This document shows, piece after piece, positions 46,253-63,864 of a stretch of DNA of 64,000 nt. Source of the DNA: Schleiferilactobacillus shenzhenensis LY-73 (lineage in GTDB: Bacteria > Bacillota > Bacilli > Lactobacillales > Lactobacillaceae); NCBI RefSeq assembly GCF_000469325.1, contig NZ_KI271589.1:1-64000 (forward strand), in the 5' to 3' direction. The notes below the pieces were generated by a model. It was given only the letters and a program-made list of their open reading frames with translations. It made no database searches and had not been told where the DNA came from. The position numbers and the translations under genes are program-made. The first letter of the stretch is position 1; every line of letters starts with the position of its first letter.

Positions 46253-48442
46253 CTAGCGTTGAAACGCCACCGCTCGGGCCACAAAGCGGCCGGCGGGGAT
46301 GGTGACTTGTCCCGGCGCCAGTGTGATGTCGGGGCTGCCCACTGTGCCGCTTTGATGCCACGCTGGCGGCACATTCATGGCCACCGTCTGCGCCTCGGGC
46401 AGATTGAACCCGAAGAACAGGTACAGGACCTCGTCGGGTAAACGGAACCCGGAGACTTGGTAGCCCACTGGGTCGTGGTAACTGAGAATATCCGGCCCTG
46501 AGCGGAACGGTCGGCCCTGCGCAATCAGGTCGCTATGCGCCCGATAGAAGGTCAGGCATTCATCGATGATTTGCCATTGCGGCGCACTCAACTGACGGAT
46601 GTCGCCGGAGAGACATACCCGGCCTAAGAATGTCGCGATCAGATGATAGTAGAGCGCATCAGCACCATCGTCCGGGTGGACGACGCACCAAATCAGGTTC
46701 TTCGCAGCCGGCACAACGTTTAGTTCGTTGGCGGCAATGATTGGGATACTGGTCGTTTCGTGGGCGTCGGAGAAAGAGGACAGGTCGGTGGCGTTGATCC
46801 AAGCCGGCGTCAGGCGGTGGCCACCGGAGGCGCAGTTCTCAATCTTAATGTTGGGAATCTGCTTACGTACCTCCTTGAGGATGGTCATGGTAGCCGCCGT
46901 CAGCCGCTGCAGGCTCTCGGCCGGGGACGCGGCCCCGGCCACGTCCTGCACATCCAGGCCCAGGCTGTCGTTATAGTCCACTTTCAAGTAATCGAAACCC
47001 GCAGTTTTCAGCAAATCGATCATCCGGATCTGTAAGTACCGCCGCACGATTGGTTGGGTCAAGTCCAAGAAGCGGCGTTTGACCGTGCTCACCGGCCGGT
47101 GCACGCCGTCACGGTCATGTTCCCGCAGCAGCATGGTCTTTTCTGCTTTTTCTTTCTCCCACTCAGCCTCAGCGTGCGGTGCAGAAAATCCGGCCATTGG
47201 AAACAAATAAAGGCGCTTGGGCGGTTCCGCGTCATGATCGTTACCTAGTAAACTATGGCGGCCGGCCGTCTCGAACTCGAACCACAGACCCGCCTTCATA
47301 TTATGCTGATGGATGTCCTGGACGACAGGGGCGAGTCCTTCAGGGAAACGTTTGGGGTCCACCACCCAGTCGCCGTGACCGCCGTCCCATTGGTTCAGGG
47401 CGCTCTGGTACCAGCCCGCGTCAATGACGTAGGTGCCGATCGCATGCTGCTGCAGCAGGGTCAACGACTCATGGATCAGGGTAGCACTGGGATTGCCCCA
47501 GGTCGTGCCCCACTCGTTGTAAATAATCGGCAGGTCCGTGTTGTGCACCGCTGGCTGCAAACGGTGACTGACCCGGGCCAAGTCTCCGTGGGCGACCGTG
47601 AGATAGGCGACGGGCGTCTGGTATTTTTCATTCCGTTCCAAGTCCACGTACCATTGACCGTTATCTGCATCGGGCAAGCCGCCGAAGATCATCAGCCGAT
47701 CGTCCAAGCGACCGACGTTCAGCTGCCAGGAGGCCCGGACAGCCAATTCTGCCAACCAGGTCACATCGCGGTGCTTGTCCCGTAAACCGACCCAAGGGAA
47801 GAACCGGCGCACCGGCATGGTGCCGTTCTGGCCGAACTGTTCCAGGGCCAGACCGGAGGGCTTCCAACTGGACTCTAAATCATAGTCTTCGACCGGCCTT
47901 TCTTCCAACCGGCCCTCCATGGCCCACTTCGAGCGGAGCCGCAGCAGGTCCAGGGTGCCGGCCGGGATGGCGTCGCTGTAAAACGGACTGATGCCGCTGA
48001 GGCAAAAGGACGCCAGCCAAAGGAAGCGCTGGCCTTGGTCATGGTTGCACTGCACGGTGGTCCAAGTGTGCAACCGCTGCTCCCCCGGCCGCCACAAGAG
48101 GTGGTGGGCGTAAAGGTTGCCGTGACCGTCCCGCATAGACGTGCGGATAATGACCGCATCGTCATCTTCCCGCACCCGCTTGGTGTGACGGATAAGTTTC
48201 AGGGACTGCACCGTGGCGTTGTTGTACATCGTCAAGCCATTCGTGAAGTTCTTGTCCGCGGCAGTCCCCGCCACTCGGGCTTGAATCAGCGAACAGACAG
48301 TCTTTTGGTGGCGGGGAACAGACACCAGCGGGGCATCTTCAACGGGATAGATCATCAGCTCCACATGGTGGTCCTCATCGACCAGGTAGTGGGCCACCAT
48401 GTCCCCCAGCTGGTAACGGGCCAAATCAGTAAAGTGCAGCAT
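46253..48442 (-). CDS. GH36 alpha-galactosidase-like glycoside hydrolase
   Basis: A 729-residue GH36-type protein: N-terminal beta-supersandwich (~1-300), TIM barrel (~310-630) and a C-terminal beta domain. Clan D motifs are visible: YNEWGTTWGNPS, GTYVIDAGWYQ, the nucleophile Asp in YLKVDYNDS, ENCASGGHRL and the acid/base Asp in SSFSDAHETTS. Some positions differ from classical alpha-galactosidases (FEFETAG where FEPE is usual), so a related substrate such as alpha-GalNAc or a decorated galactoside is possible. It acts in the cytoplasm. AAAGGACC precedes the ATG. It is the last gene of the EIIA-rpoN-GH43-GH36 unit. Confidence 0.87.
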   Translation of the reverse strand: MLHFTDLARYQLGDMVAHYLVDEDHHVELMIYPVEDAPLVSVPRHQKTVCSLIQARVAGTAADKNFTNGLTMYNNATVQSLKLIRHTKRVREDDDAVIIRTSMRDGHGNLYAHHLLWRPGEQRLHTWTTVQCNHDQGQRFLWLASFCLSGISPFYSDAIPAGTLDLLRLRSKWAMEGRLEERPVEDYDLESSWKPSGLALEQFGQNGTMPVRRFFPWVGLRDKHRDVTWLAELAVRASWQLNVGRLDDRLMIFGGLPDADNGQWYVDLERNEKYQTPVAYLTVAHGDLARVSHRLQPAVHNTDLPIIYNEWGTTWGNPSATLIHESLTLLQQHAIGTYVIDAGWYQSALNQWDGGHGDWVVDPKRFPEGLAPVVQDIHQHNMKAGLWFEFETAGRHSLLGNDHDAEPPKRLYLFPMAGFSAPHAEAEWEKEKAEKTMLLREHDRDGVHRPVSTVKRRFLDLTQPIVRRYLQIRMIDLLKTAGFDYLKVDYNDSLGLDVQDVAGAASPAESLQRLTAATMTILKEVRKQIPNIKIENCASGGHRLTPAWINATDLSSFSDAHETTSIPIIAANELNVVPAAKNLIWCVVHPDDGADALYYHLIATFLGRVCLSGDIRQLSAPQWQIIDECLTFYRAHSDLIAQGRPFRSGPDILSYHDPVGYQVSGFRLPDEVLYLFFGFNLPEAQTVAMNVPPAWHQSGTVGSPDITLAPGQVTIPAGRFVARAVAFQR

Positions 48443-48460
48443 CAGTTTGCGGTCCTTTCT

Positions 48461-50059
48461 TCACTCCGGGTCATGGACTTCGTCATAATTGAAGTACCGG
48501 AAGTCGGCGAACGAGCGGTGGGCGTCCATGTCCTGGGCACACAGCCCCACCATCGCCCCAGTGAAGCCCAGATGGCCATGGTCCTTCACGTAGTCATCGC
48601 TGAGCCGATCCGCCGCGTACGTCTCCCCTAGTATACCGTGGTTGGTCCCTTGGGTATAAGAAAAGAGACCAATATTCCGGTCGACTTCGACCTGAAGTTG
48701 AACCGGTTGCTGGGGATCAATCGGTACTGGGTCAGAAAGGTAGCGGTAATGATCCATGTCTGCGGTCTCCACCCGCAGGAACGTCTGCTGGCGGTGCTCG
48801 TCGTAAGAGACGTACAGATACGCCCAGTTCGCCGTATCGTAGAATGGGACCAGCCCGGCCGTCTGCTGGAAGTTCGTGGGCGCAAAAGTCATCTCGGTGC
48901 TGGCGGTGAAATGGAATGCTTGCCAGCGCCGGGCGAGCAGGGTCTGATTGAACAGACTGGACAGACTCTCCCGACCGTGGAGCCGGAGGTAACCGGGGCG
49001 TTCGGTGAGCGACGCCGTAGCCCCCAGAGGTCCGCGCAGTGTCTTCAGTTCCGGCGGCAGCTGTTTCAGCTCACTGAAATCGAGGTCTTGGGAGTAATCA
49101 TCGCGCTGCGGAGCGGTCGCCAATGAGGGCGCGGTAATTGTTAAGTCCGGTACCGTCGTGTGGTTCGTCAATCGCGGCCAGCCGTCCTTTGCCCATTCGA
49201 TGGGCGCCAGCCCCGTCTCCCGGCCCAGCGGGGTATTGGCCCGGCCCGTCGGCAGTAATGGCCGGGCGCATAAGAAGACGATATACCACTCAGTGGGACT
49301 TACTTCAACAAAACACGCATGGCCGCATTTCTTTAATGGCGCATACGGGGTGTAACGCGTCGAAATCAACGGATTAATTGGTGAGTTCTCATACGGTCCC
49401 CAAATATTGCGGCTACGGGCGACCGTCGCAGCATGGGAAAAACCGGTACCGCCGGCCGCGCACAGTAGATAGTACCAGCCGTCTTTCTTAATGATCTGGG
49501 GGCCTTCGCAGGTGCCCCAATCCGTGCCGGTATAGACTTTCTTTCTCTCCCCAATGACCTTCATCGTCAAGGGATCAAACTCTTGTAAAGCAATCCCGCT
49601 GAAACCGGGCTGATCTAACCGGTGGTCGTAGAGCATGTTCAAAATGTAGTGACGCCCATCGGTATCGTGAAACAGGGACGGGTCAAAACCACTGGCCGTG
49701 ATGAAAGTGGGTTCCGACCATGGACCCGCCGGATCTGGACTAGTCATCACAAAATTCAGAGTGTCCTTAAAAGCCGTCGCTGACCGGACAATCGTCGAGA
49801 CCAGCCAGTATTGGCCGTCCGCGTAACTCAAGTGCGGCGCCCAAATACCACCGGAATTGTAGACGCCGCGCAGAGGAATCGCTGCCTCGTCGTTGAGCGG
49901 TTCGCATAACAGGTCCCAATGGACAAGATCCTGTGAATGATAAATCTCGATTCCTGGCCACCATTCAAAGGTGGACGTCGCCAAATAATAATCGGCACCG
50001 ACGTGCAGCAAACTCGGGTCGGGGTTAAATCCGCGCAATATGGGGTTCTGTATCTTCAT
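48461..50059 (-). CDS. GH43 beta-xylosidase/alpha-L-arabinofuranosidase
   Basis: A 532-residue GH43 enzyme of the XynB type, with a five-bladed propeller (~1-310) and a C-terminal beta-sandwich (~330-525). Catalytic residues fit the family: Asp14 in GFNPDPS, Asp126 in SGFDPSLF, Glu185 in GTCEGPQ. It would remove xylose or arabinose from the ends of imported oligosaccharides. Its ribosome site AAAGGATAATG overlaps the rpoN stop codon, so it is coupled to the preceding gene. 18 bases separate it from GH36. Confidence 0.9.
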   Translation of the reverse strand: MKIQNPILRGFNPDPSLLHVGADYYLATSTFEWWPGIEIYHSQDLVHWDLLCEPLNDEAAIPLRGVYNSGGIWAPHLSYADGQYWLVSTIVRSATAFKDTLNFVMTSPDPAGPWSEPTFITASGFDPSLFHDTDGRHYILNMLYDHRLDQPGFSGIALQEFDPLTMKVIGERKKVYTGTDWGTCEGPQIIKKDGWYYLLCAAGGTGFSHAATVARSRNIWGPYENSPINPLISTRYTPYAPLKKCGHACFVEVSPTEWYIVFLCARPLLPTGRANTPLGRETGLAPIEWAKDGWPRLTNHTTVPDLTITAPSLATAPQRDDYSQDLDFSELKQLPPELKTLRGPLGATASLTERPGYLRLHGRESLSSLFNQTLLARRWQAFHFTASTEMTFAPTNFQQTAGLVPFYDTANWAYLYVSYDEHRQQTFLRVETADMDHYRYLSDPVPIDPQQPVQLQVEVDRNIGLFSYTQGTNHGILGETYAADRLSDDYVKDHGHLGFTGAMVGLCAQDMDAHRSFADFRYFNYDEVHDPE

Positions 50060-50068
50060 CGTGGCTCA

Positions 50069-51380
50069 TTATCCTTTCAATTTTGCGTTCCGCCGCCGTT
50101 GGGCAGAAGAGGGAAGATGATTCTCTTGGCGGTACTTGGCGACCGTCCGGCGGGCGACTTGGTAACCGCGGGCCGTCAGGGCCTGGGCAATCTGTTCGTC
50201 GCTCAGCGGCTGTCCGGGCGTTTCGCCGGCCACGATGGCTTTGAGCGCGGCCACCATCTGGTCGACCGACTGGTCCGTCGATTCGTCACCGCCGCTGTAC
50301 CGCGAGAAGAAGTCCTTCAACGGGAAGACGCCCTGGTCGGTCTCGATATATTTATCATTGATCGCCCGGCTGACCGTCGATTCGCTGATCTGCAATTTCT
50401 GCGCAATATCCCGCAGCAGAAGCGGGGCAATCGTTTGGCGCTGTCCTGTGAAAAAGGCATATTGGGCGCGCCCGATTTGCCGACCGACCATCATCAAGGT
50501 ATCCGTCCGCCGCTGAATGTTATACATCACGGACTGGTACTGGCTGTATCGGTCGGTGATGTACTCCTGGACCTCAGCATCGGTGGATTGCTTCAGCTGG
50601 ATCGTACGTCTCCTGGGCGAATACCACCTGGGGCTGGTTATGCCGAATCAGTGTGAGCGACAGCTTGCCGTCTTGGCTCGTTACCCGCAGCTCCGGAATC
50701 ACGTAACTGGTCTGGGTGTGGTTATACGGCAAGCCCGGATTGGCAGAAAGGGAGCGAATATACGTCATCGCCCCGCCAAACTCCGTATCATTGAGCCCCA
50801 GCTTCTTTTGAATGGCCGTCCACCGGTGGTCTTTCAACGCTTGAAAATGGTCCCGGAGAATGGAGGCTGCTGCCGGCACAGCGTCCGGGTCGTTTTCTGT
50901 CTGCAACAGTAAACACTCTTGCAGATCATGGGCGCCGACGCCGGGCGGGTCCAATTGCTGCAGCAAGGTCTTGGCGTCCATCAGCATCACCGGTGAAACG
51001 GCGACTTGCTGTAGAATCTGGTCATCCGTCAAGGGCAAGTAGCCGCTGGGCTCCAGCTGGTTGATCAAATAGACGACCAGCGCACGCAGCGGCGTCTTAC
51101 GCATCGTCAGGTGTACTTGATCCAACAAATAGGCAAAAAGCGAGCCATGGGTGTCCCTGATTTGATAACTCTCACCGGTTCCCGTCGGCCGACTCGCCAC
51201 CGGCTGCATCAATGGCATCTTGATGTTCATCAGGGGGTTCTCCATGCTGATGTTCTCGAGATAATCCTGCAGATCCAGCGCATCCAGCCGCAGCATGGCA
51301 ATCGCCTGGCGCATCCCTTGCGTCAGCGCTAGTCTTTGGGTTTGCGTTTGGTTTAGAGAAAAGCCTTGATTCATCGTCAT
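50069..51380 (-). pseudogene. rpoN: RNA polymerase sigma-54 factor, frameshifted
   Basis: Two adjoining frames together encode a complete sigma-54 of about 435 residues. The first (51380 to about 50600) has region I, the activator contact (LNQTQTQRLALTQGMRQAIAML), and the core-binding domain. The second (to 50069) has the HTH (QISESTVSRAINDKYIET) and the RpoN box ARRTVAKYR that reads the -24 element. Near 50597-50604 one extra base shifts the frame (after AQETYDPA), ending at TGA about 50573. Nothing else is decayed. It may be a recent mutation, a sequencing error or recoding. It is the second gene of a unit that starts at a -24/-12 promoter. Confidence 0.85.
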
Positions 51381-51419: not shown

Positions 51420-51827
51420 TCAGAAAAACGCCTCGCCGTCATTATTAACGACTTTCTTCAGTACCACGTGCTGAACGTTGGCTTGGGCCTGAGCAATCAT
51501 CGTGGCGATGTCCTCATCATTCTTAGGCGGCGTCAACACGGTCTGCAGCGCCATGGCTAGGTTCATCCCGCCAATCAGCGTCACGTTGGGCAGGTTGAGC
51601 AGGGCCATCGCGGCGTTACACATACTGCCGCCCACCAGGTCAGCCAGAATGATCACATCCTGATCCGGGGTAATCGTTTTGCGCAGCGCGTTAATGATTT
51701 CGTCCGGCTTGTGCCCCGGCATCAGCCCATGGGCTTCCAAGTTGGTTTGCGGTCCAGCAATCATCTCGACGGCAGCCTTCATGCCGGCCGCCAGTTGGTT
51801 ATGTGATAGAAAAATAATCCGAGTCAT
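51420..51827 (-). CDS. mannose-family PTS EIIA component
   Basis: A 135-residue single-domain EIIA of the mannose family. His9 in IIFLSHNQLAAGM is the phosphorylation site; the LADLVGGSMCNAA stretch is also typical. It accepts phosphate from HPr and passes it to an EIIB. It is the first gene after the -24/-12 promoter at 51869-51884. The EIIB, EIIC and EIID partners lie in separate units at 53.7-55.8 and 61.6-63.8 kb, and this is the only free EIIA-Man in the window, so it may serve both. Confidence 0.9.
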   Translation of the reverse strand: MTRIIFLSHNQLAAGMKAAVEMIAGPQTNLEAHGLMPGHKPDEIINALRKTITPDQDVIILADLVGGSMCNAAMALLNLPNVTLIGGMNLAMALQTVLTPPKNDEDIATMIAQAQANVQHVVLKKVVNNDGEAFF

Positions 51828-51868: not shown

Positions 51869-51884
51869 CGCAATTGCCGTGCCA
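51869..51884 (-). promoter_or_regulatory. sigma-54 (-24/-12) promoter of the EIIA-rpoN-GH43-GH36 unit
   Basis: Minus strand TGGCAC, five bases GGCAA, TTGCG, preceded by T, fits the sigma-54 consensus. It lies about 40 bases before the EIIA start. Confidence 0.88.
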
Positions 51885-51904: not shown

Positions 51905-51920
51905 TGGCACATTATTTGCT
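51905..51920 (+). promoter_or_regulatory. sigma-54 (-24/-12) promoter of the 262-aa gene
   Basis: TGGCAC, five bases ATTAT, TTGCT. It is divergent from the EIIA promoter; only 20 bases separate the two -24 elements. Confidence 0.88.
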
Positions 51921-51961: not shown

Positions 51962-52750
51962 ATGTCCCTCACGATCTGTTTAATGCATGGTCCGCAAGTG
52001 TTACAAGAAAGTAAGCCAGGTACTGAGGCTTATCTCAGTTACCCCCACCAATACGCCGCCGGTGACCAGCTCGTCGTTACCGTCAGCAAAGCCCCCGCCT
52101 ATGTCTGGGTGCAAATGGATGCCGCCCTCAAACCGGCCCTGCTGTACCTCGCAGCCAAGCAATGGGCCTTCACCATCCCCTTCAACACCGAGCGGGAGTG
52201 GCCCTATCCTGACGGCGCCTTTCTCGGCCGCAATCACTATGCCTGGGCCCGTTTGGCCACCGCCGCCGAAATCAGCAGCGAGCGCAACTGGGCGGAAAAC
52301 AGCCACGACCAGCATGCCGCCAGCGGTGCTTTCCCTCATGTCACTGCCAATGCCGAGACCCGGAACGAGCCGGCTTTCTACGCTCGCAATGCCATTGACG
52401 GGATGGTCGCCAACGAGAAGCACGGTAATTATCCATTCCAATCTTGGGGCATCGATAATCGGGACGACGCCGAGCTGGCCCTGGACTTCGGCCGGTCGGT
52501 AACGGTCGATCACCTTGCGCTAGTCTTGCGGGCAGACTATCCCCACGATAGTTATTGGACACAAGTCACTGCGGCCTTCTCTGACGGCAGCCAAGAAACG
52601 CTGTCCCTAGAGAAAACAGCTGCGCCCCAAGCCTTCCCCATAACACCCCGGACCGTCACCGGATTACGGCTGATTCATCTGATCAAGGATCAGGACTCGT
52701 CCACCTTCCCTGCCCTCACCGAACTGGCAGTTTGGGGCCATAACGCCTAA
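51962..52750 (+). CDS. 262-aa protein with C-terminal discoidin-like domain
   Basis: A cytoplasmic protein without signal or membrane segment. Residues 1-105 form a beta-rich domain with a Trp/Tyr-rich middle (YVWVQMDAAL; YPDGAFLGRNHYAWARL). Residues ~115-260 resemble a discoidin/CBM32 galactose-binding domain (YARNAIDGMVANEKHGNYPFQSWGIDNRDDAELALDFG, then VDHLALVLR). It may bind imported saccharide or act as an accessory glycosidase-like protein; no catalytic residue can be assigned. AAGGAG precedes the ATG. It is the only plus-strand gene with a -24/-12 promoter. Confidence 0.78.
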   Translation: MSLTICLMHGPQVLQESKPGTEAYLSYPHQYAAGDQLVVTVSKAPAYVWVQMDAALKPALLYLAAKQWAFTIPFNTEREWPYPDGAFLGRNHYAWARLATAAEISSERNWAENSHDQHAASGAFPHVTANAETRNEPAFYARNAIDGMVANEKHGNYPFQSWGIDNRDDAELALDFGRSVTVDHLALVLRADYPHDSYWTQVTAAFSDGSQETLSLEKTAAPQAFPITPRTVTGLRLIHLIKDQDSSTFPALTELAVWGHNA

Positions 52751-52761
52751 TCCACCAGTTC

Positions 52762-52812: not shown

Positions 52813-53577
52813 TTAGTTCTTTGTATCCAGCAAATCATTGACGATGTGACTGATCGGTGCATCCGTATTGGCCACGGTCAAGCGGTCCGCCACCGCCTTT
52901 AACCGAGCAGTCGCGTTGGCCACGGCATAGCCGATACCCACCTGCTTGATCATCTCTTCGTCGTTGCCGTAATCGCCCACTGCCGCGACTTGGGCGAGTG
53001 GACAAGCAGCACCCAGCGCCACCGTCAAGCCGCTGGCTTTGGTGACGCCCGGCCCAGTCACTTCCAGATAATCCGTGTCGGAATGGGTGGTCGTCACCGG
53101 CAGCTGATGCAGCGCTAACATAAGCTTTGCCCGGGTCTGGGGATCTTTAATGATTGCCGACAGCTTATCGATGCCCCGGCCGTCACCGGGCAAAGCCGCC
53201 GGATCAATGCCGGCGAAGCGGCCACTGTGCATGTCTAAGGGATGAGAAAGGCCCTGGAACGTCACGACGATCTCCTGCACGTTCGCCTGCATCATCACCG
53301 TAATCACCCGCGCAGCGGCAGCAGCGCTGAGCGGCCGTCGTTTTCGCTGCCTGTCAGCTTTAATGACCAGTGCCCCGTTTAAACAGACCACAAAATCCGG
53401 TCTGACCAATGTCCGCAGCGCCCGGGCCTCGCCCGTTTCCTGCCGCCCGGAGGTGATGCCAAACAATCGTCCCGTTGCCTGCCACCGTGAGATCGCTGCG
53501 ACATCCGCCGGCGCAATTTCTTTCTGATTATTCAGCAGCGTCCCGTCCAAATCCGTACATAATACCTGTATCGCCAT
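52813..53577 (-). CDS. Cof-type HAD phosphatase, last gene of PTS operon 1
   Basis: A 254-residue HAD-IIB hydrolase: VLCTDLDGTLLNN (nucleophile Asp), GITSGRQ, and the C-terminal AVGDYGNDEEMI. It starts 79 bases after the EIID gene; GAGAGGC precedes ATG 53577. In a PTS operon it probably dephosphorylates a sugar phosphate, for overflow or to free product, but the substrate is not predictable. Confidence 0.87.
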   Translation of the reverse strand: MAIQVLCTDLDGTLLNNQKEIAPADVAAISRWQATGRLFGITSGRQETGEARALRTLVRPDFVVCLNGALVIKADRQRKRRPLSAAAAARVITVMMQANVQEIVVTFQGLSHPLDMHSGRFAGIDPAALPGDGRGIDKLSAIIKDPQTRAKLMLALHQLPVTTTHSDTDYLEVTGPGVTKASGLTVALGAACPLAQVAAVGDYGNDEEMIKQVGIGYAVANATARLKAVADRLTVANTDAPISHIVNDLLDTKN

Positions 53578-53656
53578 AACAGCCTCTCTTTCAGTGATAA
53601 GAAAACGCGGCAGACCGCCTTGTCCGGCTGTCCGTCGCGTATCGTTCAAAAACGTG

Positions 53657-54517
53657 CTAAGCGGTCTTGCCGCCAGTGATGCCCAGGAAGGTCAGGACCA
53701 GGGCCAACACCAGGATCGCGACCAGTACCCGGACCGGCCGGTTCTTCTTCCGCAGATAGGCGAAGCAGGCAAGAACCAGCACTAGCGGCAGCAAGCCAGG
53801 CAGGATCTGGTCCAGTACCCCTTGTAACTTAAAGGTCTGCCCGGCCATCTTGGCTTGGTAGGTGGTGGTGAAGGACACGTACTGTGCTGTCATCGCCCCA
53901 ATCATCATCAGACCCAGGACAGACACGGCCTTGGTAATGATCTTGAAAATCCCGTTAGCCATAGTCTTGGCCACAAAGTCTTGGCCAACTGAGTACCCTA
54001 ACTTGGCGCCATACCAGCGAATCAGCATGTTAGGGATGTTGTAGATCAAGAGGAACAACAGCGGTCCCAGCCACATCCCTTTCTGGCAGAACCCGATCGC
54101 GATCCCCGTGGCGATGATCCGTAACGCCCCCTGTTGCACCGAGTCACCTAACCCGGCAAAGGGACCCATCAAAGCCGCTTTGATAGCAGCGATGGAGGAT
54201 ACGTCGAAGCTGCCGCCCTTGTCATGATTCTCTCGCTCCATGGAGGTATTCAAGCCCATGATGAACGGCGCCATCATCGGGGTGGTATTGAAGAAGTCCT
54301 GATGCCGCAGCATGGCGTCGTAAAAGCCGTCGCTATCAGCACCGTAGATTTTCTTCAAGAACGGTTCTAGAACCCACGAATACGTGACCGCTTGCTGCTT
54401 TGTATAGGACGTACAGAACATCAGCCAGTTTTGGCGCCAGAACAATTTGCGGTAGAACCATTTCTCATCCGCCTTGTTCGTTAAGAAGCTGTCGGTCTTT
54501 TGTACTTGTTCAGTCAT
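53657..54517 (-). CDS. mannose-family PTS EIID component 1
   Basis: A 286-residue EIID: the cytoplasmic start with WFYRKLFWRQNWLMFCTSYTKQQA, the conserved NTTPMMAPFIMGLNTSMERE and GPFAGLGDSVQQG, and C-terminal membrane segments. With EIIC it forms the translocation unit in the membrane. Its start overlaps the EIIC stop by eight bases. Together with the GH88 gene nearby this permease most resembles those for unsaturated glycosaminoglycan-type or pectic disaccharides. Confidence 0.93.
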   Translation of the reverse strand: MTEQVQKTDSFLTNKADEKWFYRKLFWRQNWLMFCTSYTKQQAVTYSWVLEPFLKKIYGADSDGFYDAMLRHQDFFNTTPMMAPFIMGLNTSMERENHDKGGSFDVSSIAAIKAALMGPFAGLGDSVQQGALRIIATGIAIGFCQKGMWLGPLLFLLIYNIPNMLIRWYGAKLGYSVGQDFVAKTMANGIFKIITKAVSVLGLMMIGAMTAQYVSFTTTYQAKMAGQTFKLQGVLDQILPGLLPLVLVLACFAYLRKKNRPVRVLVAILVLALVLTFLGITGGKTA

Positions 54518-55822: not shown

Positions 55823-55866
55823 CATGCCACCTCCATTGTGTTTAGAAACGCTTCCATATTCATATA

Positions 55867-55882
55867 AGCAAACGGCATGCCA
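55867..55882 (-). promoter_or_regulatory. sigma-54 (-24/-12) promoter of PTS operon 1
   Basis: Minus strand TGGCAT, five bases GCCGT, TTGCT. It lies in the 75-base gap between the GH88 stop and the EIIB start, about 45 bases before EIIB. Confidence 0.85.
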
Positions 55883-55897: not shown

Positions 55898-57016
55898 TTA
55901 CCAAATCAAAAAATCCTTGCCCAGTAATTTCACCAACGCTTCGACCAAGAAGAAATCAGAATAGATCATCCGGACTTCGTGTTGGGGATCATGATACGCC
56001 GGCGTCCCACCGGTAACGATGCCGTCCGTGGCCGGATCTAAGTCCAAGTAATCATCCGCTACCGCTTTAACAATTTTCACAGCAGCGTCGTAGTACAGAG
56101 ATTGTTCTAGTGCAGGAACCTGGCGACTGAGGGTGATCAATCCGGCCGCAGCACACAATCCCGCAGAAGTATCCACAATTTTTGGTTCCGCCGGTGCCCG
56201 GAAGTCCACCAAGGGAACGTCCCCCGTATCGGCGATGTTGGCAAGAAAATAGTTGGCGACCCGCTTGGCAGTGTCTAAGTAGTCTTCTTTTTGGGTATGT
56301 GCATAGCTCAGCGCAAAGCCGTACAGGGCCCATGCTTGCCCCCGGGACCAGGATGACCCTTCACCATAGCCTTGACCGCCGTCAGTCTTCAACAGTTCTC
56401 CAGTGGTCGGATCAAAAATACCAATGTGGGCGACTGAGCCATCCGGCCGGACAATGTTGTTCATCACTGTATCCGCGTGGTCCTCGGCCATGTACCCATA
56501 GCGGGGATCGTTTTGTTCATCCCGCGCCCAGTACAACAGGTTAATATTCATCATGCTATCGATGATCACCCAACCCGGCCGATCCCGGTTCCAAGACCGC
56601 AGGTACTTGCCCCGAGGATTATAACGACCAGCCAGGAGCGTCGCTGCGTGCAAACCGCGCGCCCAGGCGCGATTGTTCTTGGTCAGCCGATAATCAGCCA
56701 CAGCCGACAGATCCCACATGAACCCAACATCGTGGTGCAGCCCGATGAACTGGTCGAACGCTCCGTCAAGGACCGCTTCATTGGCCTCTGCCGTCGTTCT
56801 GAATTGGTCATCTCCCGTGGCATGATACAGGAGCCACAGTGTGCCGGCCCAGAAGCCGTTCGTCCACCAAATCACGTCTTTCTTGCCCATATCGATGTAG
56901 TGACCATCTTCTCCGGGAATGTAGGGAATGGCGCTGCCCAACCGTTCCGCTTCAGCCTTGGCTTTTGCGCTCACTTGGTCAAATAAGGGCTGTACCCATG
57001 CAGGGGTCTTCGTCAT
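55898..57016 (-). CDS. ugl: unsaturated glucuronyl hydrolase, GH88
   Basis: A 372-residue GH88 enzyme with an (alpha/alpha)6 barrel. The catalytic Asp positions appear as Asp96 in HHDVGFMWDLS and Asp153 in WVIIDSMMN; other family motifs are WWTNGFWAGTLWLLY, GEGSSWSRGQAWALYGFA and RMIYSDFFLVEAL. It hydrates and releases the 4,5-unsaturated uronic acid left by polysaccharide lyases, forming the keto acid used by KduI. ATG 57016 follows AAAGAGG and lies downstream of a -24/-12 element, which excludes the longer in-frame start at 57106. It is cytoplasmic, so disaccharides arrive through the PTS. Confidence 0.93.
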   Translation of the reverse strand: MTKTPAWVQPLFDQVSAKAKAEAERLGSAIPYIPGEDGHYIDMGKKDVIWWTNGFWAGTLWLLYHATGDDQFRTTAEANEAVLDGAFDQFIGLHHDVGFMWDLSAVADYRLTKNNRAWARGLHAATLLAGRYNPRGKYLRSWNRDRPGWVIIDSMMNINLLYWARDEQNDPRYGYMAEDHADTVMNNIVRPDGSVAHIGIFDPTTGELLKTDGGQGYGEGSSWSRGQAWALYGFALSYAHTQKEDYLDTAKRVANYFLANIADTGDVPLVDFRAPAEPKIVDTSAGLCAAAGLITLSRQVPALEQSLYYDAAVKIVKAVADDYLDLDPATDGIVTGGTPAYHDPQHEVRMIYSDFFLVEALVKLLGKDFLIW

Positions 57017-57063: not shown

Positions 57064-57079
57064 CGCAAAAAGCGTGCCA
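57064..57079 (-). promoter_or_regulatory. sigma-54 (-24/-12) promoter of the GH88 gene
   Basis: Minus strand TGGCAC, five bases GCTTT, TTGCG. It lies between the activator gene's stop codon and the GH88 start, about 48 bases before the latter. Confidence 0.87.
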
Positions 57080-57115: not shown

Positions 57116-59737
57116 TTAAGCTGTTGGCGTATTCTGATCGTCGATAATCGCCTGGAACAGCTGGTACAGGAGCGATAGCTCATAGCCGTTAATATCGATG
57201 TGGTACTTGAGCTCCAGGGGCTTGCAGATACCCTTGGCCACGTCGAAGAACTCCTGCTCTTCCTTGCTCTCCGGAGCCAAATCATTGGCCCGGTCGGCCC
57301 CAGCGCCAGTCATCAGGCGCTCCACCATCAGAGAAATATGCATGTACAGGTTCAGCTTGATCTTGCCGTCGAGCTTAATGTGGTAATAATGCTCGAACTT
57401 GTAGATGACCGTCTCCACCTCTTGGATAATCACCGTCGGATTGAGGAAGGACAGCCGCTCGGTGACCCCTTCGATGGAGAGAAAGCGGACAATGCGATTG
57501 TACAGGTCATCGAAGGTGCGCTGGTCAATGTACTTCCTCAGGATATTATGCAGGAAAGTCTGCCCCCGCGGCGCCAGTAAATCATAAATATTAATATTGG
57601 GAATGGCGAATGACTCTGGCAAGTTGGTGGTGGTGATGACCAGTAAAGTGGATTCGAACTCGCTCCGGTCATTGGCCCGCACACTTTGCGATAAGTGGCT
57701 GAAGTCCATCGTCAACAAGCTGATCTGGCTGCCCAGCACCTCGTGAAAGATGTCCCGTAACTTCTCGGAGATCCCCAGCCCGGACATACAGGAGATGACG
57801 ATGTTCTGGTCCTTGGCGAAGCCCTCGAAGTATTGGGCAGAAATGCTGTAATCCGTCCGAGCATGTTCGGCGATTTGTTCAAACGGCAGCCGGCTCTGAA
57901 TCTTTAGCGCGACATCCAGCGCGGTGGCGGTCGTCAGATTGTTGATGACCAGCACGTCACCGCTGAGGGCGTTCTTAATCTTGCGGTACAACTGGCTGAG
58001 TGAGCCCATATCCACCAGCAGGATAAAGCCATTGGAGGTATCAAAGGAGTCAACGATGCGCTTGGCTTCCCCAATAATTTGGTCAATCGTCGTGTCAATA
58101 GGCATGTCGATGGCATCCACCAGATAACTGCCGCAAAGCTGGTTGACCACCGATTGGATACTGGTCGCCGTATGGCTGCCATGGGCGACCATCAAGCAGC
58201 GTAGCGGAATTTTTTCGTCGATGAGCTCACTGATACAGCATGCGAGCAGCGCGGTCAGTAATTCTTGGCTCGCTTTATCCAGCACCGGCAGTGCCGCATA
58301 GAATTGGCTGGCCACATGGAGTGACCGGGGAAAATTATTGGCCACTTCCTGCTGCACGCGTTTGAGCTGAGCAGACGGCACCGTTACTCGTTCCGCATAG
58401 AGACGGAAGAAAATCGGCTCATACTCCGTTGTGCTCTTCAAGCCAAAACGATGACGAACAATCTGTTTGAAGACCAGCCGGTGGACTGTGTGGAGAATCG
58501 TTTGGTGAATGCTGTCGTGTGCATGCTGGGCTTCGAGGTTCTGGATCATCAGACGGCTGGCCGCTGCTGTTGGGTGCGGATTTTCCTGAAAAAATTGACG
58601 AATAACCGCCGCATCACCGACATTACTGATGTGATCAGCCAGTACGGCTTCGGTCGGTGCAACAACCATCGGAGTGGTCACCGGTGCCTGGTCCGCCCGT
58701 ACGGTCAGTCCCTCCCCTTCAAAATCAGCCAGGGTGATCGTCATCTTCTCGCTATGGGTTGCTTGCCGGGTATACGCGCGCGCACATGCCACTTTGATCA
58801 GGTTCTTCAGACGGCCGACATTCCCCACTGGCTTGAGCTGCGTCAACATTTCGACCACTTCAGGGGCAATCGTGAGGGATTTATCGAACCGTGTAGCCTC
58901 CCCGTGGAACAGCGCCTGGATGAAGTCCAGCCGCTCGTCCAGCGGCCGGTCGGCATAGGCGGTGATATGGATACTCACCGGCACCCGCCGGCGGAAGGTG
59001 TCCAACAACACTGCCTTAGGATCCTCCGTCGTGGCCAAGATGATGCGGACATGGGCAACATGATCCTTGCGGTTCTCGCCGATGGGACGGTAATGCCCGG
59101 TGTCCATGAAAGTAAACAGCTTCTCCTGATTCTCCCCGGACAACCGGTGGATCTCGTCCAGCAGCAAATAGCCCCCGTCCGCCGCCTGGATCAGCCCTTC
59201 TTTATTAACATTGGCACCGGTAAAGGCCCCTTTGACATAGCCGAAGAGCACGGACGAAAGCAGCTCCGGATTGTTGGCATAATCGGCACAATTCAGTACC
59301 TTGAACGGTGCCTGCGGGGCAATCACGCCAGCGTCACGGGCATAGTCATAGATGGTTTGAGCAAGAAAAGTCTTACCCACACCACTCTTACCAGTGAGCA
59401 GCATATTGAGCCCGCCGTCCGGATATTTGACAGCCGCGATGCACTTACGGATATTATCGGCCTGGCTGCCCTCTGCCCCAATGATGTTAGCAAAAGCGTG
59501 CAAAGGCATTGGCGCTGGGGTGACCGCAACGATGGCAGCAGCCACTGCTGGCTGCCAGCGTACAGGCCGACCGCTCAGTTTCTTGACCTTCTTGTCTGTC
59601 AACAATTGCGACAAATAATGGCTCGTCACTGACCGGCTCAATCCTAAGTCATCGGCAATGGCCATTGTTTCCACCGCCTCGGTCCCCCGGCTCAACTTGA
59701 CCAAAGACCCGAGGACCCGTTCTTGTGCTGATGCCAT
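57116..59737 (-). CDS. LevR-type sigma-54-dependent activator with PTS regulation domains
   Basis: An 873-residue activator. In order: HTH (1-60, TMAIADDLGLSRSVTSHYLSQL), AAA+ domain with Walker A GKSGVGKT (116-123), the sigma-54 contact loop GAFTGA (170-175) and Walker B LLLDEIH (191-197), a first PRD (~430-520), an EIIA-Man-like domain (~530-650, CLMVAHGSHTATS with a possible phospho-His), an EIIB-Gat-like domain (~665-760, ISCMSGLGI with Cys) and a second PRD (~770-873, LNLYMHISLMVERLM). It would open sigma-54 promoters when its PRDs are set by HPr and the PTS EIIs. It is the only such activator here and lies next to GH88. Confidence 0.93.
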   Translation of the reverse strand: MASAQERVLGSLVKLSRGTEAVETMAIADDLGLSRSVTSHYLSQLLTDKKVKKLSGRPVRWQPAVAAAIVAVTPAPMPLHAFANIIGAEGSQADNIRKCIAAVKYPDGGLNMLLTGKSGVGKTFLAQTIYDYARDAGVIAPQAPFKVLNCADYANNPELLSSVLFGYVKGAFTGANVNKEGLIQAADGGYLLLDEIHRLSGENQEKLFTFMDTGHYRPIGENRKDHVAHVRIILATTEDPKAVLLDTFRRRVPVSIHITAYADRPLDERLDFIQALFHGEATRFDKSLTIAPEVVEMLTQLKPVGNVGRLKNLIKVACARAYTRQATHSEKMTITLADFEGEGLTVRADQAPVTTPMVVAPTEAVLADHISNVGDAAVIRQFFQENPHPTAAASRLMIQNLEAQHAHDSIHQTILHTVHRLVFKQIVRHRFGLKSTTEYEPIFFRLYAERVTVPSAQLKRVQQEVANNFPRSLHVASQFYAALPVLDKASQELLTALLACCISELIDEKIPLRCLMVAHGSHTATSIQSVVNQLCGSYLVDAIDMPIDTTIDQIIGEAKRIVDSFDTSNGFILLVDMGSLSQLYRKIKNALSGDVLVINNLTTATALDVALKIQSRLPFEQIAEHARTDYSISAQYFEGFAKDQNIVISCMSGLGISEKLRDIFHEVLGSQISLLTMDFSHLSQSVRANDRSEFESTLLVITTTNLPESFAIPNINIYDLLAPRGQTFLHNILRKYIDQRTFDDLYNRIVRFLSIEGVTERLSFLNPTVIIQEVETVIYKFEHYYHIKLDGKIKLNLYMHISLMVERLMTGAGADRANDLAPESKEEQEFFDVAKGICKPLELKYHIDINGYELSLLYQLFQAIIDDQNTPTA

Positions 59738-59786: not shown

Positions 59787-60284
59787 TCACCGTGCCATGT
59801 ATGCTCGATAGACAGAAAATGCGGTGTTCTCGGGTCTGTCCGGAAATAGTAAATCTGGTACATCGGTGGCAGCGACCCATTGCGCCGATGCTAACTCCTT
59901 GGAAGGGACCAGCTCATGGTCAGCAGTCAACCCAATGAATCCGTGCATCAAGGTGTCAGTCTTACCAAACCAGTACGTTCCCGTAAAGCGCAGACTGGTT
60001 AAGGTCAGTCCTAATTCTTCCTCAACTTCTCGCCGTGCCGTCGTCTCCGCAGTTTCTCCGGGCTTCATATAGCCGGATACAAAGCCGGCATAGCGCGTTG
60101 ATAAGTAAGGCATCTTAACCAATGCAATCTCGTTTGCCTCGTTAGCCACCAAAACGATCACGCAATCAGAAAAAGAAGGGAACCAGAACTGCTGGCAATG
60201 CTGGCAATAGGGCGTGGGGCCGTCATCACCGGCAGTTCGATCAATTAACGCTGCGCCGCAGTTTGGACAATAATGGAACTTCAT
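59787..60284 (-). CDS. NUDIX hydrolase with N-terminal zinc ribbon
   Basis: A 165-residue protein. Residues 1-35 form a four-cysteine zinc ribbon (YCPNCGAAL; YCQHCQQFW), followed by a NUDIX domain with an intact box (GYMKPGETAETTARREVEEELGL). The layout recalls NudC-type NADH pyrophosphatases, but it is shorter and lacks their full N-terminal domain, so another nucleotide substrate is possible. GCGGAGG precedes the ATG. It lies 49 bases upstream of the activator gene on the same strand. Confidence 0.87.
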   Translation of the reverse strand: MKFHYCPNCGAALIDRTAGDDGPTPYCQHCQQFWFPSFSDCVIVLVANEANEIALVKMPYLSTRYAGFVSGYMKPGETAETTARREVEEELGLTLTSLRFTGTYWFGKTDTLMHGFIGLTADHELVPSKELASAQWVAATDVPDLLFPDRPENTAFSVYRAYMAR

Positions 60285-60372
60285 TTGCTGGCCTCCGCAC
60301 CTAATGAAAACATTTTCTTAAGTTCAATGTAGCATGGATTGTTTAAGGATACAAGACAGTGTTTAGCCAAAA

Positions 60373-60406
60373 ATAGTGTTTAATCTTCGCTAGGATTAAA
60401 CACTAT
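60373..60406 (-). terminator. perfect 13-base hairpin downstream of PTS operon 2
   Basis: ATAGTGTTTAATC (60373-60385) faces GATTAAACACTAT (60394-60406). On the minus strand TTTTT follows, so it can end the PTS2-GH43 operon. The AT-rich stem could also be an operator. The rest of 60285-60617 has no gene; a GGTAACGGTAACC motif occurs near 60523. Confidence 0.6.
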
Positions 60407-60617: not shown

Positions 60618-61538
60618 TTAATCCAGTTGCCCGCCAAACGGCGTCTCCGTCCACGGAATCACCAAGTCCCGCCCGTGAATCTCAATCGGCAGGATACTGT
60701 AACCGGAATGCTTCAAGTCGAACCGCTGCCAGTGGTCCAGCATCAGATAATACTGCCCAGCAATCGGCAGCACATAGGTGGGCTGACCATCGTAGGTCGT
60801 CCGCGCCCGGGGACCAATACAGGGATTATCGATGAGCTTCTGGTTGGAGAAAAGAAAATGGGAGCGAGAGAAAAGCGCCGGATTCGGCCGCCAGCCCGTG
60901 CATCCTGACGTAACCGTGTAGTACCAGTCGCCGGCGTGGAACACGGTGGGGGCTTCCCGCTCCTGATCGACGAAGGCTTTGGCCGTAAAACCGGTAAAGT
61001 CGAGATAATCATCCGTCATTTCGCTGAAGTACAACGTTTTGTTCATGTCGGAACTATGGATCAAGTACGTGCGGCCGCCGTCTTGATAGATGGTCATGTC
61101 CCGGCTCTCCCGCCGGTTGGGGCGCAAGACTTTTTGCACGACAAACGGGCCGGTGGGCTGGTCCGCGACCGCCACCAAATTACCGGCAAAGGTATAGTCT
61201 GGCGTATCGTAATGGCACCACATAACGAAACGGTCGCGCTGGTCATCGTATAGCACTTTGGGCCGCTCGCAGATACTCTCGCGACCTAGCGTATGGGTGG
61301 GATCCGTCGCTGTATTGAGGACGACGCCGGCATTATGCCACGTCACCAAATCCCGCGAGGTATAACAGGAGATACCCACAAACGGTACCATGTTCACGCC
61401 CGCCGCATTCCGGTAATTCTCTGCATCCTTATTTTCGCCGTACCAATAATACGTATCGCCGTGCTGTAGAATCATTCCGCCATGGGCTTGAATCAGCTCA
61501 CCAGCATCGTCTTGCCAGGGTTGGCCATTCTTATTCAT
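60618..61538 (-). CDS. GH43-like five-bladed propeller glycosidase
   Basis: A 306-residue single-domain GH43-like protein: an early strand with WQDDAGELIQAHGGMILQHGDTYYWYGENKD, SRDLVTWHNAGVVL, the Glu motif ERPKVLYDD and the RESRDMTIYQD region, typical of galactan- or arabinan-acting members. No signal peptide. It follows the EIID gene of PTS operon 2 by about 75 bases and is the last gene of that unit, so it probably trims the oligosaccharide imported there. The exact bond is unknown. Confidence 0.83.
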   Translation of the reverse strand: MNKNGQPWQDDAGELIQAHGGMILQHGDTYYWYGENKDAENYRNAAGVNMVPFVGISCYTSRDLVTWHNAGVVLNTATDPTHTLGRESICERPKVLYDDQRDRFVMWCHYDTPDYTFAGNLVAVADQPTGPFVVQKVLRPNRRESRDMTIYQDGGRTYLIHSSDMNKTLYFSEMTDDYLDFTGFTAKAFVDQEREAPTVFHAGDWYYTVTSGCTGWRPNPALFSRSHFLFSNQKLIDNPCIGPRARTTYDGQPTYVLPIAGQYYLMLDHWQRFDLKHSGYSILPIEIHGRDLVIPWTETPFGGQLD

Positions 61539-61614
61539 TATGTGATAACTTCCTTTCTTCCGCAAAAAACGCAACGCACTCAATGCGAATGCGCTGCGCC
61601 GTTATATCAATCGA

Positions 61615-62469
61615 TTACGCGCCGGTAATGCCGAGGAACGTCAAGATAAAGCCTAACGCTACGACACCCAGCAGGACCAGGACGGGGTTCTTGCCCTTCC
61701 GTAAGAGGACAAAGCAGCCTACGGAAAGGAGCAACGGCAAGATGCCCGGCATAATCTGGTCGAAGACCTTCTGCAGTACAAACTCGGTGCCGTTAATTTT
61801 GGTCTTGAAGACCAGCGGGAATTTGACGAGGCTGGCAATCATGCCGCCGACGACGGTAACCCCGACGATGGAGGTAGCCCGAGTGAACATCGTCATCAAA
61901 CCATCCTGGACGGCCTTCGAAATATACTTACTACCCAACTTGTAACTGTATTTCTGGCCGTACCAGCGAATCAAAATATTAGGCGGCAAGCCAACAAGTG
62001 ACAGCAACATCACTGCCAAATTGCCTGATTTGGCAAAGCCAATACCAATCCCGGTTAAGATTAGACTCCAGACACCGGCGAAGAACGTGTCACCAATGCC
62101 GGCCATCGGCCCCATCAGGCCGATCTTCATGCCGCTGATACCAGCTGTATCGAACGTATCTGCCGGTGCCTTGGCATTCTCCTGTTCCATGGACACCGCC
62201 AAGCCGGAGACGATGCCGTTCATATTGGGCGTGGTATTATAGAATTCCATGTTTCGTTTCATTGCTTCCCAGAACTTGTCTGGGTCATCCTTATAAATCT
62301 TTTTGTAGACTGGAGCATGAATCCAATCCCAAGCAACCCCTTGCTGGCGGGTATAACTCATGCAGTACCCGAGCCACATGTTGCGCCAGAAAAGCTTCTT
62401 GGTCATTTTCATTTCTTCGGATGATAGCTGCATCTTGTTGTCCTTAGTCGTCGTTGTCTTGTTATTCAT
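61615..62469 (-). CDS. mannose-family PTS EIID component 2
   Basis: A 284-residue EIID: KKLFWRNMWLGYCMSYTRQQG, NTTPNMNGIVSGLAVSMEQE, GPMAGIGDTFFAG, then C-terminal spans. ATG 62469, after AGGGGGATT, overlaps the EIIC stop by eight bases exactly as in operon 1; the longer in-frame start at 62547 would lie deep in EIIC. It is a clear paralogue of EIID 1. Confidence 0.92.
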   Translation of the reverse strand: MNNKTTTTKDNKMQLSSEEMKMTKKLFWRNMWLGYCMSYTRQQGVAWDWIHAPVYKKIYKDDPDKFWEAMKRNMEFYNTTPNMNGIVSGLAVSMEQENAKAPADTFDTAGISGMKIGLMGPMAGIGDTFFAGVWSLILTGIGIGFAKSGNLAVMLLSLVGLPPNILIRWYGQKYSYKLGSKYISKAVQDGLMTMFTRATSIVGVTVVGGMIASLVKFPLVFKTKINGTEFVLQKVFDQIMPGILPLLLSVGCFVLLRKGKNPVLVLLGVVALGFILTFLGITGA

Positions 62470-63277
62470 TGAAGAAATCCCCCTCATCATCATCGGTGCT
62501 TGGTCCCGCAGTGACGGCTTGGGCCTGGTTGCTCTTCTTGACATCATTGATATGCCGATCGATGAAAAACATAATCAGGCCGAAGACGACACCGAACAAA
62601 CTGATGGCCATAATCGGCAATTTGAGATAGGCGCCCAGTAGGAATCCGGCAATGAAGAAAGGCAGGAATTCGATGTTCCAAACATACTTCAGCAACATAC
62701 CCATGCCGACCGCCGGCAACATGCCCGCGGCAACGGTCAAACCACTCAAAAACGGTTTAGGAATGCTGGTCACGAATGCCTTGATGCCGTGAGTACCCAG
62801 TAATACGGCAAGAAAAGCCAATAAGAAGTATGTCAAAATATAGACCGCCATCTGAATCCACCATAATCGGTTAAACTTCTTCATGTTTCGCTCGTCAATG
62901 TACTTGTCGAAGACTTCCACGTTGGTGGTAAACCAAAATTTCAGTAAGTTCCACACTACAACGGCTAGCATTGAAATGGGCACAGCCAGTGCTACGGCGA
63001 TGGCGGGTTTTTGATTCAGAATGAGAGCAAAGCCCAAGCCCAACGTGCCTCCGAAGCCGGTGTCTTGCGGCATCACGGCCCCAATCTGCATGACCCCATA
63101 AAAAGCCAGTGCAATGGCAGCATCAATCATTAAGGCGTCAACAGGGCTCTTACCGAGTAAAATGGCAAGGACCGGGGTGAAGAAGAACGGCATCACTTGG
63201 CCAAATGAACCATAGATACCAAACCACTTTCCCCAAGCGGCATACAAGCCGATAATGAATGCTTGATACAGCAGCAT
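62462..63277 (-). CDS. mannose-family PTS EIIC component 2
   Basis: A 271-residue EIIC with about seven spans: FTPVLAILLGKSPVDALMIDAAIALAFYGVMQIGAVMPQDTGFGGTLG is the conserved central region. The acidic end (STDDDEGDFF) parallels EIIC 1. It lies two bases after EIIB 2. Differences in the substrate-binding spans from EIIC 1 suggest a distinct sugar. Confidence 0.92.
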   Translation of the reverse strand: MLLYQAFIIGLYAAWGKWFGIYGSFGQVMPFFFTPVLAILLGKSPVDALMIDAAIALAFYGVMQIGAVMPQDTGFGGTLGLGFALILNQKPAIAVALAVPISMLAVVVWNLLKFWFTTNVEVFDKYIDERNMKKFNRLWWIQMAVYILTYFLLAFLAVLLGTHGIKAFVTSIPKPFLSGLTVAAGMLPAVGMGMLLKYVWNIEFLPFFIAGFLLGAYLKLPIMAISLFGVVFGLIMFFIDRHINDVKKSNQAQAVTAGPSTDDDEGDFFNE

Positions 63278-63279
63278 AA

Positions 63280-63777
63280 TTAGTGAACTCCCTTCAACAA
63301 GCTCTCAAAGGGCTTGGGTTCATCTGTGGGCAGCGGTTGATAAACAAAGTTCTTAGCCAAGTCATTGATCTCGTTGGCCTTAGTCACCTCATCATCGCTT
63401 AAGTAGACCGTCTCAGTGAGCTTATGTTTGTTCTCAATATCACCGCTGACCCGGCCGACGTTGGCGATATCTACCTTCGTGCTACCCGGTTCAACCCCCT
63501 TGACGATCGTATATAAGTCGTCAACGTTGTTCACGAGCAGCAACATCTTAAAGTTCTTCCCCCGAGGGTCATTGGCCATCTTGATTGCCTTATCCACCTC
63601 AACGACAGCAACTTTAACTCCTGCCGGTGCTGCCAACAGTAATGCGTTCTTTTGAATCTCGCTCTTGGCCGCCTTGTCGTTGGCGACGATGATTCGGTTC
63701 AGGCCTAGTTGCTTCGTCCATAGAAGGGCGACTTGACCGTGGATCAAACGATCATCGACCCGCATCATTTCAATCAT
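63280..63777 (-). CDS. mannose-family PTS EIIB component 2
   Basis: A 165-residue EIIB with phospho-His13 in MRVDDRLIHGQVALLW, IVANDKAAKSEIQ and VDIANVGRVSGD. ATG 63777 follows GGAGGTG; the longer in-frame start at 63825 would place residues between the promoter and this site. It is the first gene of EIIB-EIIC-EIID-GH43. No EIIA lies in this operon within the window. Confidence 0.92.
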   Translation of the reverse strand: MIEMMRVDDRLIHGQVALLWTKQLGLNRIIVANDKAAKSEIQKNALLLAAPAGVKVAVVEVDKAIKMANDPRGKNFKMLLLVNNVDDLYTIVKGVEPGSTKVDIANVGRVSGDIENKHKLTETVYLSDDEVTKANEINDLAKNFVYQPLPTDEPKPFESLLKGVH

Positions 63778-63848
63778 GTTGAACACCTCCGCAATATTCC
63801 GCCGGTTGATACGCAGCTTACTCAACTGAACGGTTCATTATCATTCTA

Positions 63849-63864
63849 CGCAAGTGCTGTGCCA
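63849..63864 (-). promoter_or_regulatory. sigma-54 (-24/-12) promoter of PTS operon 2
   Basis: Minus strand TGGCAC, five bases AGCAC, TTGCG, preceded by TT. It lies about 72 bases before the EIIB 2 start. Confidence 0.88.

Follow-up and report, generated by a model that had tools for sequence, protein, structure and literature searches.

A probable self-contained sigma-54 locus for sugar-acid utilization in Schleiferilactobacillus shenzhenensis, with rpoN placed behind a sigma-54-type promoter element

LevR-type regulators join carbohydrate transport to sigma-54: LevR senses phosphorylation in the phosphotransferase system (PTS) through its EII-like and PRD parts, and the esu operon of Lactobacillus casei reportedly places a mannose-family PTS under LevR/ManR-type sigma-54 control (work attributed to Yebra, 2004). 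Activators of this type, acting with sigma-54, control mannose PTS, and L. plantarum is said to have one of them (excerpt of PMC3162934). Here we describe a locus of this kind in a window (the whole stretch of DNA analysed, 64,000 nucleotides) from S. shenzhenensis LY-73, part of contig C8 (NZ_KI271589.1) in a draft genome of 3.27 Mb and 61 contigs. Seven operons, each with a promoter-placed −24/−12 element, are grouped with one LevR-type activator gene and the genome's only rpoN, the gene for sigma-54. The sequence-only reading from which we started had proposed that a LevR-type activator and two mannose-family PTS belong to a compact sigma-54 regulon, directed at uronide-containing oligosaccharides; elements and domain matches support the first part, and the presence of KduI and KduD in the unit supports the second. 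The extent given there, 46253–63864 with five elements, holds as a core and left out the KduI–KduD–DUF2264 operon with which the unit begins (42479) and a second gene of glycoside hydrolase (GH) family 36 with which it ends (contig position 66174). Also absent from it were the match of the DUF2264 protein to dehydratases, the standing of sigma-54 and activator as the only ones in the genome, and the position of rpoN behind a sigma-54 element. Taken together, the predicted parts probably form a self-contained, portable sigma-54 locus for sugar-acid utilization with positive feedback through sigma-54.

The five known elements were found where they had been placed: at 51869–51884 (−; TGGCACGGCAATTGCG) upstream of EIIA–rpoN–GH43–GH36, at 51905–51920 (+; TGGCACATTATTTGCT) upstream of a 262-amino-acid protein gene, at 55867–55882 (−; TGGCATGCCGTTTGCT) upstream of PTS 1, at 57064–57079 (−; TGGCACGCTTTTTGCG) upstream of GH88 and at 63849–63864 (−; TGGCACAGCACTTGCG) upstream of PTS 2–GH43. 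Two further promoter-placed elements lie at 42479–42494 (+; TGGCATCCTTTTTGCT), 118 bases upstream of the KduI ATG, and at contig position 66159–66174, where the second GH36 gene again has TGGCATGCCGTTTGCT. Measured from where the element begins, the start codon lies 57 bases away for EIIA, the 262-amino-acid protein and IIB1 and 63 for GH88, within the 40–75 bases given in the sequence-only reading; IIB2 departs from this range, with 87 bases to its likelier ATG (63777) or 39 to an upstream TTG (63825). Schleiferilactobacillus perolens DSM 12744 (G002), our comparison genome of the same genus, keeps elements at five promoters: EIIA (TGGCACGATAATTGCG), the 262-amino-acid protein (TGGCACTATTTTTGCT), IIB1 (TGGCACGGTAATTGCT), GH88 (TGGCATGGTTTTTGCT) and KduI (TGGCACGGTAGTTGCT). 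The PTS 2 genes are preceded by elements in eight other genomes.

Spacing provides the sharpest control. Across ten loci including the present one (355 kb), TGGCAY-N5-TTGCW occurs 39 times, against 0, 0, 1, 2, 2, 1 and 2 occurrences with spacers of 2, 3, 4, 6, 7, 8 and 9 bp, one for the backward pattern, and a mean of 2 and maximum of 6 in a Markov simulation. Eleven perfect elements exist in the genome, five of them within 24 kb of C8 (42–66 kb) and the other six inside reading frames; one of the five, which overlaps the IIB1 start, is probably a chance match. Site count alone shows nothing, since G001, a genome of the same genus with neither rpoN nor activator at E ≤ 1e-60, has 13 perfect sites. 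On position, conservation in S. perolens, the PTS 2 elements elsewhere and the spacer control, the predicted element set is real and not a product of chance. Sigma-54 control of the genome's other mannose-type PTS, on contigs C5 and C6, was considered and rejected: the C6 element lies inside a coding frame, and C5 offers matches only with two mismatches. Elsewhere in the window, TGGCACGTATTTTGCG (25289–25304, −) stands directly upstream of a hexulose-phosphate-synthase-like gene (start 25261) and is retained in G001 as TGGCACGTATTTTGCT; this footprint may be a relic or have another function. G001 also has two tandem −24/−12-like elements about 200 bases upstream of an open reading frame on its contig C4, near 87137.

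A census of rpoN in Lactobacillaceae covered 131 of the 137 genomes above cut-off, with 134 copies in all. Left out were G255, whose frame failed the length filter, five genomes in which the match is partial or degenerate (G256, G378, G394, G370 and G182) and, in G353 and G386, a second match that is degenerate. These second matches, to Sigma54_DBD, contain stop codons, resembling a decayed second rpoN. Genes were called by a simple open-reading-frame script, a run being same-strand genes with gaps of at most 250 bases; an element was counted if near the start of any run gene at or upstream of rpoN, and for 13 rows less than 2 kb of upstream sequence was shown. The gene lies at the whiA/cggR-gap site in 69 cases, near his genes in 3, beside mannose-type PTS or LevR genes in 36 (a class assigned only where cggR-gap and his markers were lacking) and elsewhere in 26. 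A perfect element occurs in the run into rpoN for 20 of the 36 PTS-linked copies versus 1 of the 98 others, and allowing TTGCN raises the former to 22 with the latter still at 1. Spacers of 4 or 6 bp gave 0/134, and the backward pattern 1/134 (perfect) or 2/134 (TTGCN). The Fisher value for this contrast, 8.6e-15, overstates independence because the rows are related by descent; a quick RpoN tree, carrying a long-branch warning, needs ten changes of the trait. In that tree one supported set of 11 (support 99) contains eight of the ten locus RpoNs, a second set of 75 rows (support 84) the cggR-gap RpoNs, and a third (support 92) another 17 PTS-linked RpoNs. Eight of the ten locus rpoN genes have an element in the run leading into them. 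The order LevR–EIIA–IIB–IIC–IID–MgtC–RpoN recurs in other Lactobacillaceae, often with a −24/−12 element before EIIA.

Related loci with much of the enzyme set were found in at least ten other genomes among the 397 Lactobacillaceae sampled (S. perolens, G107, G081, G324, G334, G178, G180, G157, G148 and G118). The locus, not recognized in the sequence-only reading as one described for Lactobacillus, is thus not unique. Activator orthologues of at least 57% identity are present in nine other genomes, eight of which carry rpoN on the activator's contig, either within the cluster or no more than about 30 kb from the activator gene; G118 contributes one more locus, whose LevR-type gene is a different one. 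Overall, 10 of 11 loci, the present one included, have rpoN in the cluster or close to it, and DUF2264 occurs in 8 of the 11 genomes with the locus versus 28 of the 386 others. Beyond the family, an order-level search at E ≤ 1e-220 gave nothing above 45% identity, and when named genomes were scanned with S. perolens RpoN, the matches were the query species and five distant Treponema. RpoN has been noted in two L. rhamnosus isolates and not in reference strain GG (excerpt of PMC3954586), a pattern that fits gain and loss within a species.

The activator (57116–59737, −) combines an AAA+ domain bearing GAFTGA with EIIA-man and a C-terminal PRD by Pfam, which agrees with its assignment as LevR-type; the second PRD claimed for it was undetected at E ≤ 0.01. 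It is the genome's one strong Sigma54_activat match (133.7 bits), four weaker ones (33.6–40.3 bits) having been set aside as Clp-type AAA+ proteins. Upstream on the same strand lies a NUDIX hydrolase gene (59787–60284, −; Pfam NUDIX), and, judged by eye, the NUDIX–levR promoter resembles a sigma-70 one, which would allow the activator to be made first. In front of this pair is a strandless candidate activator-binding palindrome, AGTGTTTAA-N12-TTAAACACT (60375–60404), which recurs before levR in S. perolens, G107 and G081 with half sites 13–14 bases apart, and is exact with 5-base spacing in G148. Palindrome half sites occur near 15 of the 39 elements versus 4.0 expected, a weaker signal at the promoters than before levR.

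Gene calls for EIIA, sigma-54, the two GH43 enzymes, the GH36-type enzyme, both mannose-type PTS and GH88 all agree with Pfam. The uronide part of the proposal is firm because KduI and KduD sit in the same unit: kduI (42597–43442, +), encoding 5-dehydro-4-deoxy-D-glucuronate isomerase, matches Pfam KduI and NCBIfam NF002091 (402 bits, cut-off 250), and kduD (43474–44295, +), encoding 2-dehydro-3-deoxy-D-gluconate 5-dehydrogenase, matches NF005390 (454 bits, cut-off 369). Downstream, a DUF2264 protein (44367–46202, +; Pfam DUF2264 and DUF2264_C) is predicted to be a GH154-type beta-D-glucuronate dehydratase, on the basis of PDB dehydratase matches over about 200 residues (9o4u, 50.7 bits; 9nwf, 47.8 bits) and of its key residues. 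Seven of ten BcGDH active-site residues (N177, W178, F181, Y229, R285, Y289 and Y354) are kept as N143, W144, F147, Y195, R245, Y249 and Y316, and are invariant in a three-row alignment; E74 and R78 fall outside the alignment. Replacing any of the ten abolished detectable activity in BcGDH, an enzyme that dehydrates terminal glucuronate and thereby feeds GH88, and reclassification of family GH154 was proposed in 2025 (excerpt of PMC12269599). The GH88 unsaturated glucuronyl hydrolase of the window (55898–57016, −) scores only 27.2 bits in Pfam, yet the solved enzyme 1vd5 matches it at 200 bits over nearly the whole protein, and it conserves the Asp replaced by Asn in entry 2ahf. The match of the DUF2264 protein to glucuronate dehydratases makes a lyase dispensable in principle; dehydratase, GH88 and KduI/KduD could together remove glucuronate without one. 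In the window at 23393–26294 (−), genes for a PfkB kinase, HxlA-like and HxlB-like proteins and a 2-keto-3-deoxy-6-phosphogluconate (KDPG) aldolase stand in a row. The aldolase scores over its cut-off and the kinase below those for 2-keto-3-deoxygluconate (KDG) kinases; the two could supply the lower uronate pathway.

Terminal glucuronate is carried by the side chains of type II arabinogalactan. Because the 321-amino-acid GH43 enzyme (60618–61583, −) matches exo-beta-1,3-galactanases (PDB 6eug 206, 3vsf 162, 7bys 140 and 5flw 129 bits; a similarity over the catalytic domain), we infer that such side chains are the likeliest source glycan, which would put a name to the acidic heteroglycan previously left unrecognized.

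The two permeases would import glucuronate-capped (arabino)galactan oligosaccharides, which GH43 and GH36 enzymes would trim inside the cell. The DUF2264 dehydratase would convert terminal glucuronate to its 4,5-unsaturated form, GH88 would release the unsaturated residue, and KduI and KduD would turn it into KDG. Substrate flow is expected to alter phosphorylation of the activator's EII-like and PRD domains, whereupon the activator would bind AGTGTTTAA palindromes and open the sigma-54 promoters. With rpoN as second gene of a target operon, activation should also raise sigma-54, closing a positive feedback loop, and a cluster with its own sigma-54 could behave as a portable unit.

Whether the loop can run in LY-73 depends on rpoN itself (50069–51380, −; Pfam sigma-54 AID, CBD and DBD). 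The sequence-only reading missed that this gene is split into two frames in this assembly; its counterpart in S. perolens is intact. Unless the assembly is wrong at this point, the switch would consequently be dead in LY-73. If the frameshift is real, the locus would be a relic, no longer transcribed here from its −24/−12 promoters—an outcome we consider unlikely, although it carries some weight. The genome offers no second rpoN (its one Sigma54_DBD match is at this locus), and on contig C6 another mannose-type PTS has an IID gene (94297–95182) that is likewise in two frames. Yet both rpoN halves retain 73–74% identity to the intact S. perolens protein, the unit's other listed genes have open frames, and a draft of this many contigs could contain such an error. 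A related doubt is that rpoN might be a mere neighbour, with sigma-54 made constitutively from another promoter and no meaningful feedback. Some sigma-54 must indeed pre-exist the first round, and among the 69 copies at the cggR-gap site, 68 have no element in the run; the concentration of elements in runs into PTS-linked copies, and an element 49 bases upstream of rpoN itself in G180, argue the other way, and we regard this explanation as rather improbable.

The substrate could also be of another origin. In a streptococcal-like glycosaminoglycan cluster, the PTS would import unsaturated hyaluronan or chondroitin disaccharides made by an extracellular lyase, to be degraded by GH88, KduI/DhuI and KduD/DhuD. 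IIC1 is nearest to the NCBIfam model AgaW, although below its cut-off (164 vs 300 bits), and chondrosine, a chondroitin disaccharide, is a substrate of BcGDH (excerpt of PMC12269599). However, a galactanase-type GH43, a beta-xylosidase-type GH43 and two GH36 enzymes have no evident use on glycosaminoglycans, and the Alginate_lyase family found no match in this genome (its control matched in 1 of 14 genomes). No extracellular glycosaminoglycan lyase was seen among the window proteins searched; a Lyase_8 search was also without match, but its control matched nowhere, making it uninformative. The corresponding stretches of S. perolens, G107 and G081 do encode large proteins with an alginate-lyase domain, joined in S. 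perolens by an S-layer domain. We judge the glycosaminoglycan explanation quite improbable.

Several further observations weigh, with the broken rpoN frame, against a self-contained sigma-54 locus built around a dehydratase. On the regulatory side, a loose scan of the window (up to two mismatches) gave 48 matches against a shuffled mean of 40, not significant alone, as is also true of the genome scan with up to one mismatch (132 matches vs 109 for the backward pattern). The elements at 51869, 57064 and 63849 end in TTGCG, off the usual consensus and outside the 11 perfect ones. A second LevR-type gene precedes rpoN in G107 and G081, and the run that contains this rpoN starts without an element, a point shared with the neighbour explanation; the G148 locus has no rpoN of its own, that of G148 being at the cggR-gap site. 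The exact palindrome with 12–14-base spacing stands before levR in only 4 of 10 loci, and some half sites lie downstream of the element. On the enzymatic side, the similarity of the DUF2264 protein to dehydratases is weak (50.7 bits at best, in one domain), its third match, 8oi4 (41.9 bits), is an entry named beta-galactosidase, and BcGDH N176 is replaced by glycine; at E ≤ 1e-30, DUF2264 had no match in G324, G334 or G178. The principle of sigma-54 autoregulation is, moreover, not new, because a 2025 survey already infers it in Bacilli (excerpt of PMC12316311).

The remaining parts complete the unit. The EIIA–rpoN operon runs from a mannose-family EIIA gene (51420–51827, −; Pfam EIIA-man) through rpoN to a GH43 gene of beta-xylosidase type with GH43_C2 (48461–50059, −; Pfam; PDB 2exh, 485 bits) and a distant GH36-type alpha-galactosidase gene (46253–48442, −; Pfam Melibiase 98 bits; PDB 3mi6 68 bits). 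PTS 1 consists of IIB (55328–55825, −; PTSIIB_sorb), IIC (54510–55325, −; EII-Sor) and IID (53657–54517, −; EIID-AGA), next to a HAD-family hydrolase gene of uncertain start (52813–53649, −; Pfam Hydrolase_3). The same Pfam families describe PTS 2, with IIB at 63280–63777 (−; ATG start, the listed reading frame beginning at TTG 63825), IIC at 62462–63277 (−) and IID at 61615–62430 (−; start uncertain, listed frame from 62547). The second GH36 alpha-galactosidase (−) has its 3′ end in the window at 63946–64000, extends to contig position 66111 and matches the Pfam GH36 N, Melibiase and C domains. Divergent from EIIA, the 262-amino-acid protein (51962–52750, +) is conserved in four other loci, without a Pfam match or convincing sequence match; its C-terminal half appears discoidin/CBM32-like in a low-confidence model (mean pLDDT 67, pTM 0.47), the structural matches covering part of it only.

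A small complete sigma-54 regulon of one sigma factor, one activator and one locus makes feedback via the sigma factor testable. The locus points to possible lyase-free removal of glucuronate from plant glycans in food lactobacilli, and suggests one way in which sigma-54 is gained and lost in Lactobacillaceae, as cargo of carbohydrate loci. More broadly, it is conceivable, though we advance it tentatively, that some lactobacilli sigma-54s have turned from global factors into locus-bound switch parts, each tied to one LevR-type activator and one carbohydrate locus and made from a promoter that they read themselves, giving an all-or-none, self-amplifying switch. S. perolens, with two rpoN genes (36% identical products, one in the locus set of 11 and one in the third set of the tree), would hold two such units side by side, since a LevR-type gene and a PTS accompany either rpoN; the units differ in palindrome, AGTGTTTAA in the first and AGTGCTTAA in the second, and are possibly insulated. 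In the literature, surveyed in part, neither this locus nor an rpoN within a PTS operon of lactobacilli was found described, and the combination of components and a census of rpoN inside Lactobacillaceae PTS loci did not appear there either.

Compared with LevR/ManR systems (B. subtilis lev, the mannose PTS of L. plantarum and Listeria, and L. casei esu), the locus shares a LevR-type activator, −24/−12 promoters and a mannose-family PTS. It differs in its cargo of GH88, a dehydratase-type DUF2264 protein, KduI/KduD and GH43/GH36 enzymes, in its seven operons and in having rpoN inside a target operon. The streptococcal glycosaminoglycan PTS cluster has in common a PTS, a GH88 unsaturated glucuronyl hydrolase and KduI/KduD-type enzymes (excerpt of PMC6837340), whereas here no lyase was found in the locus, and a dehydratase-type gene, galactan/xylan-type enzymes and sigma-54 elements are present. 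The pairing of a GH154-type dehydratase with GH88 is likewise seen in Bacteroides caccae PUL25, and BT_3677 has a second domain, as does the window DUF2264 protein, whether or not of the same kind (excerpt of PMC12269599); unlike the Bacteroides pair, ours is PTS-fed, belongs to a lactic acid bacterium and has sigma-54 elements. In ulvan degradation another dehydratase acts with GH105 (excerpt of PMC8511951). For the regulatory loop, the nearest parallel is rhizobial prxS–rpoN2, where the operon of a second rpoN, on the M. loti symbiosis island, has both a sigma-54 promoter and a NifA site (excerpt of PMC3538637); that system serves nitrogen fixation in Alphaproteobacteria under NifA, in place of LevR here. 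Cereibacter sphaeroides has four paralogous sigma-54s, RpoN1–4, those studied each working with one activator (excerpt of PMC11999139), whereas one rpoN per genome is usual here, and S. perolens has two.

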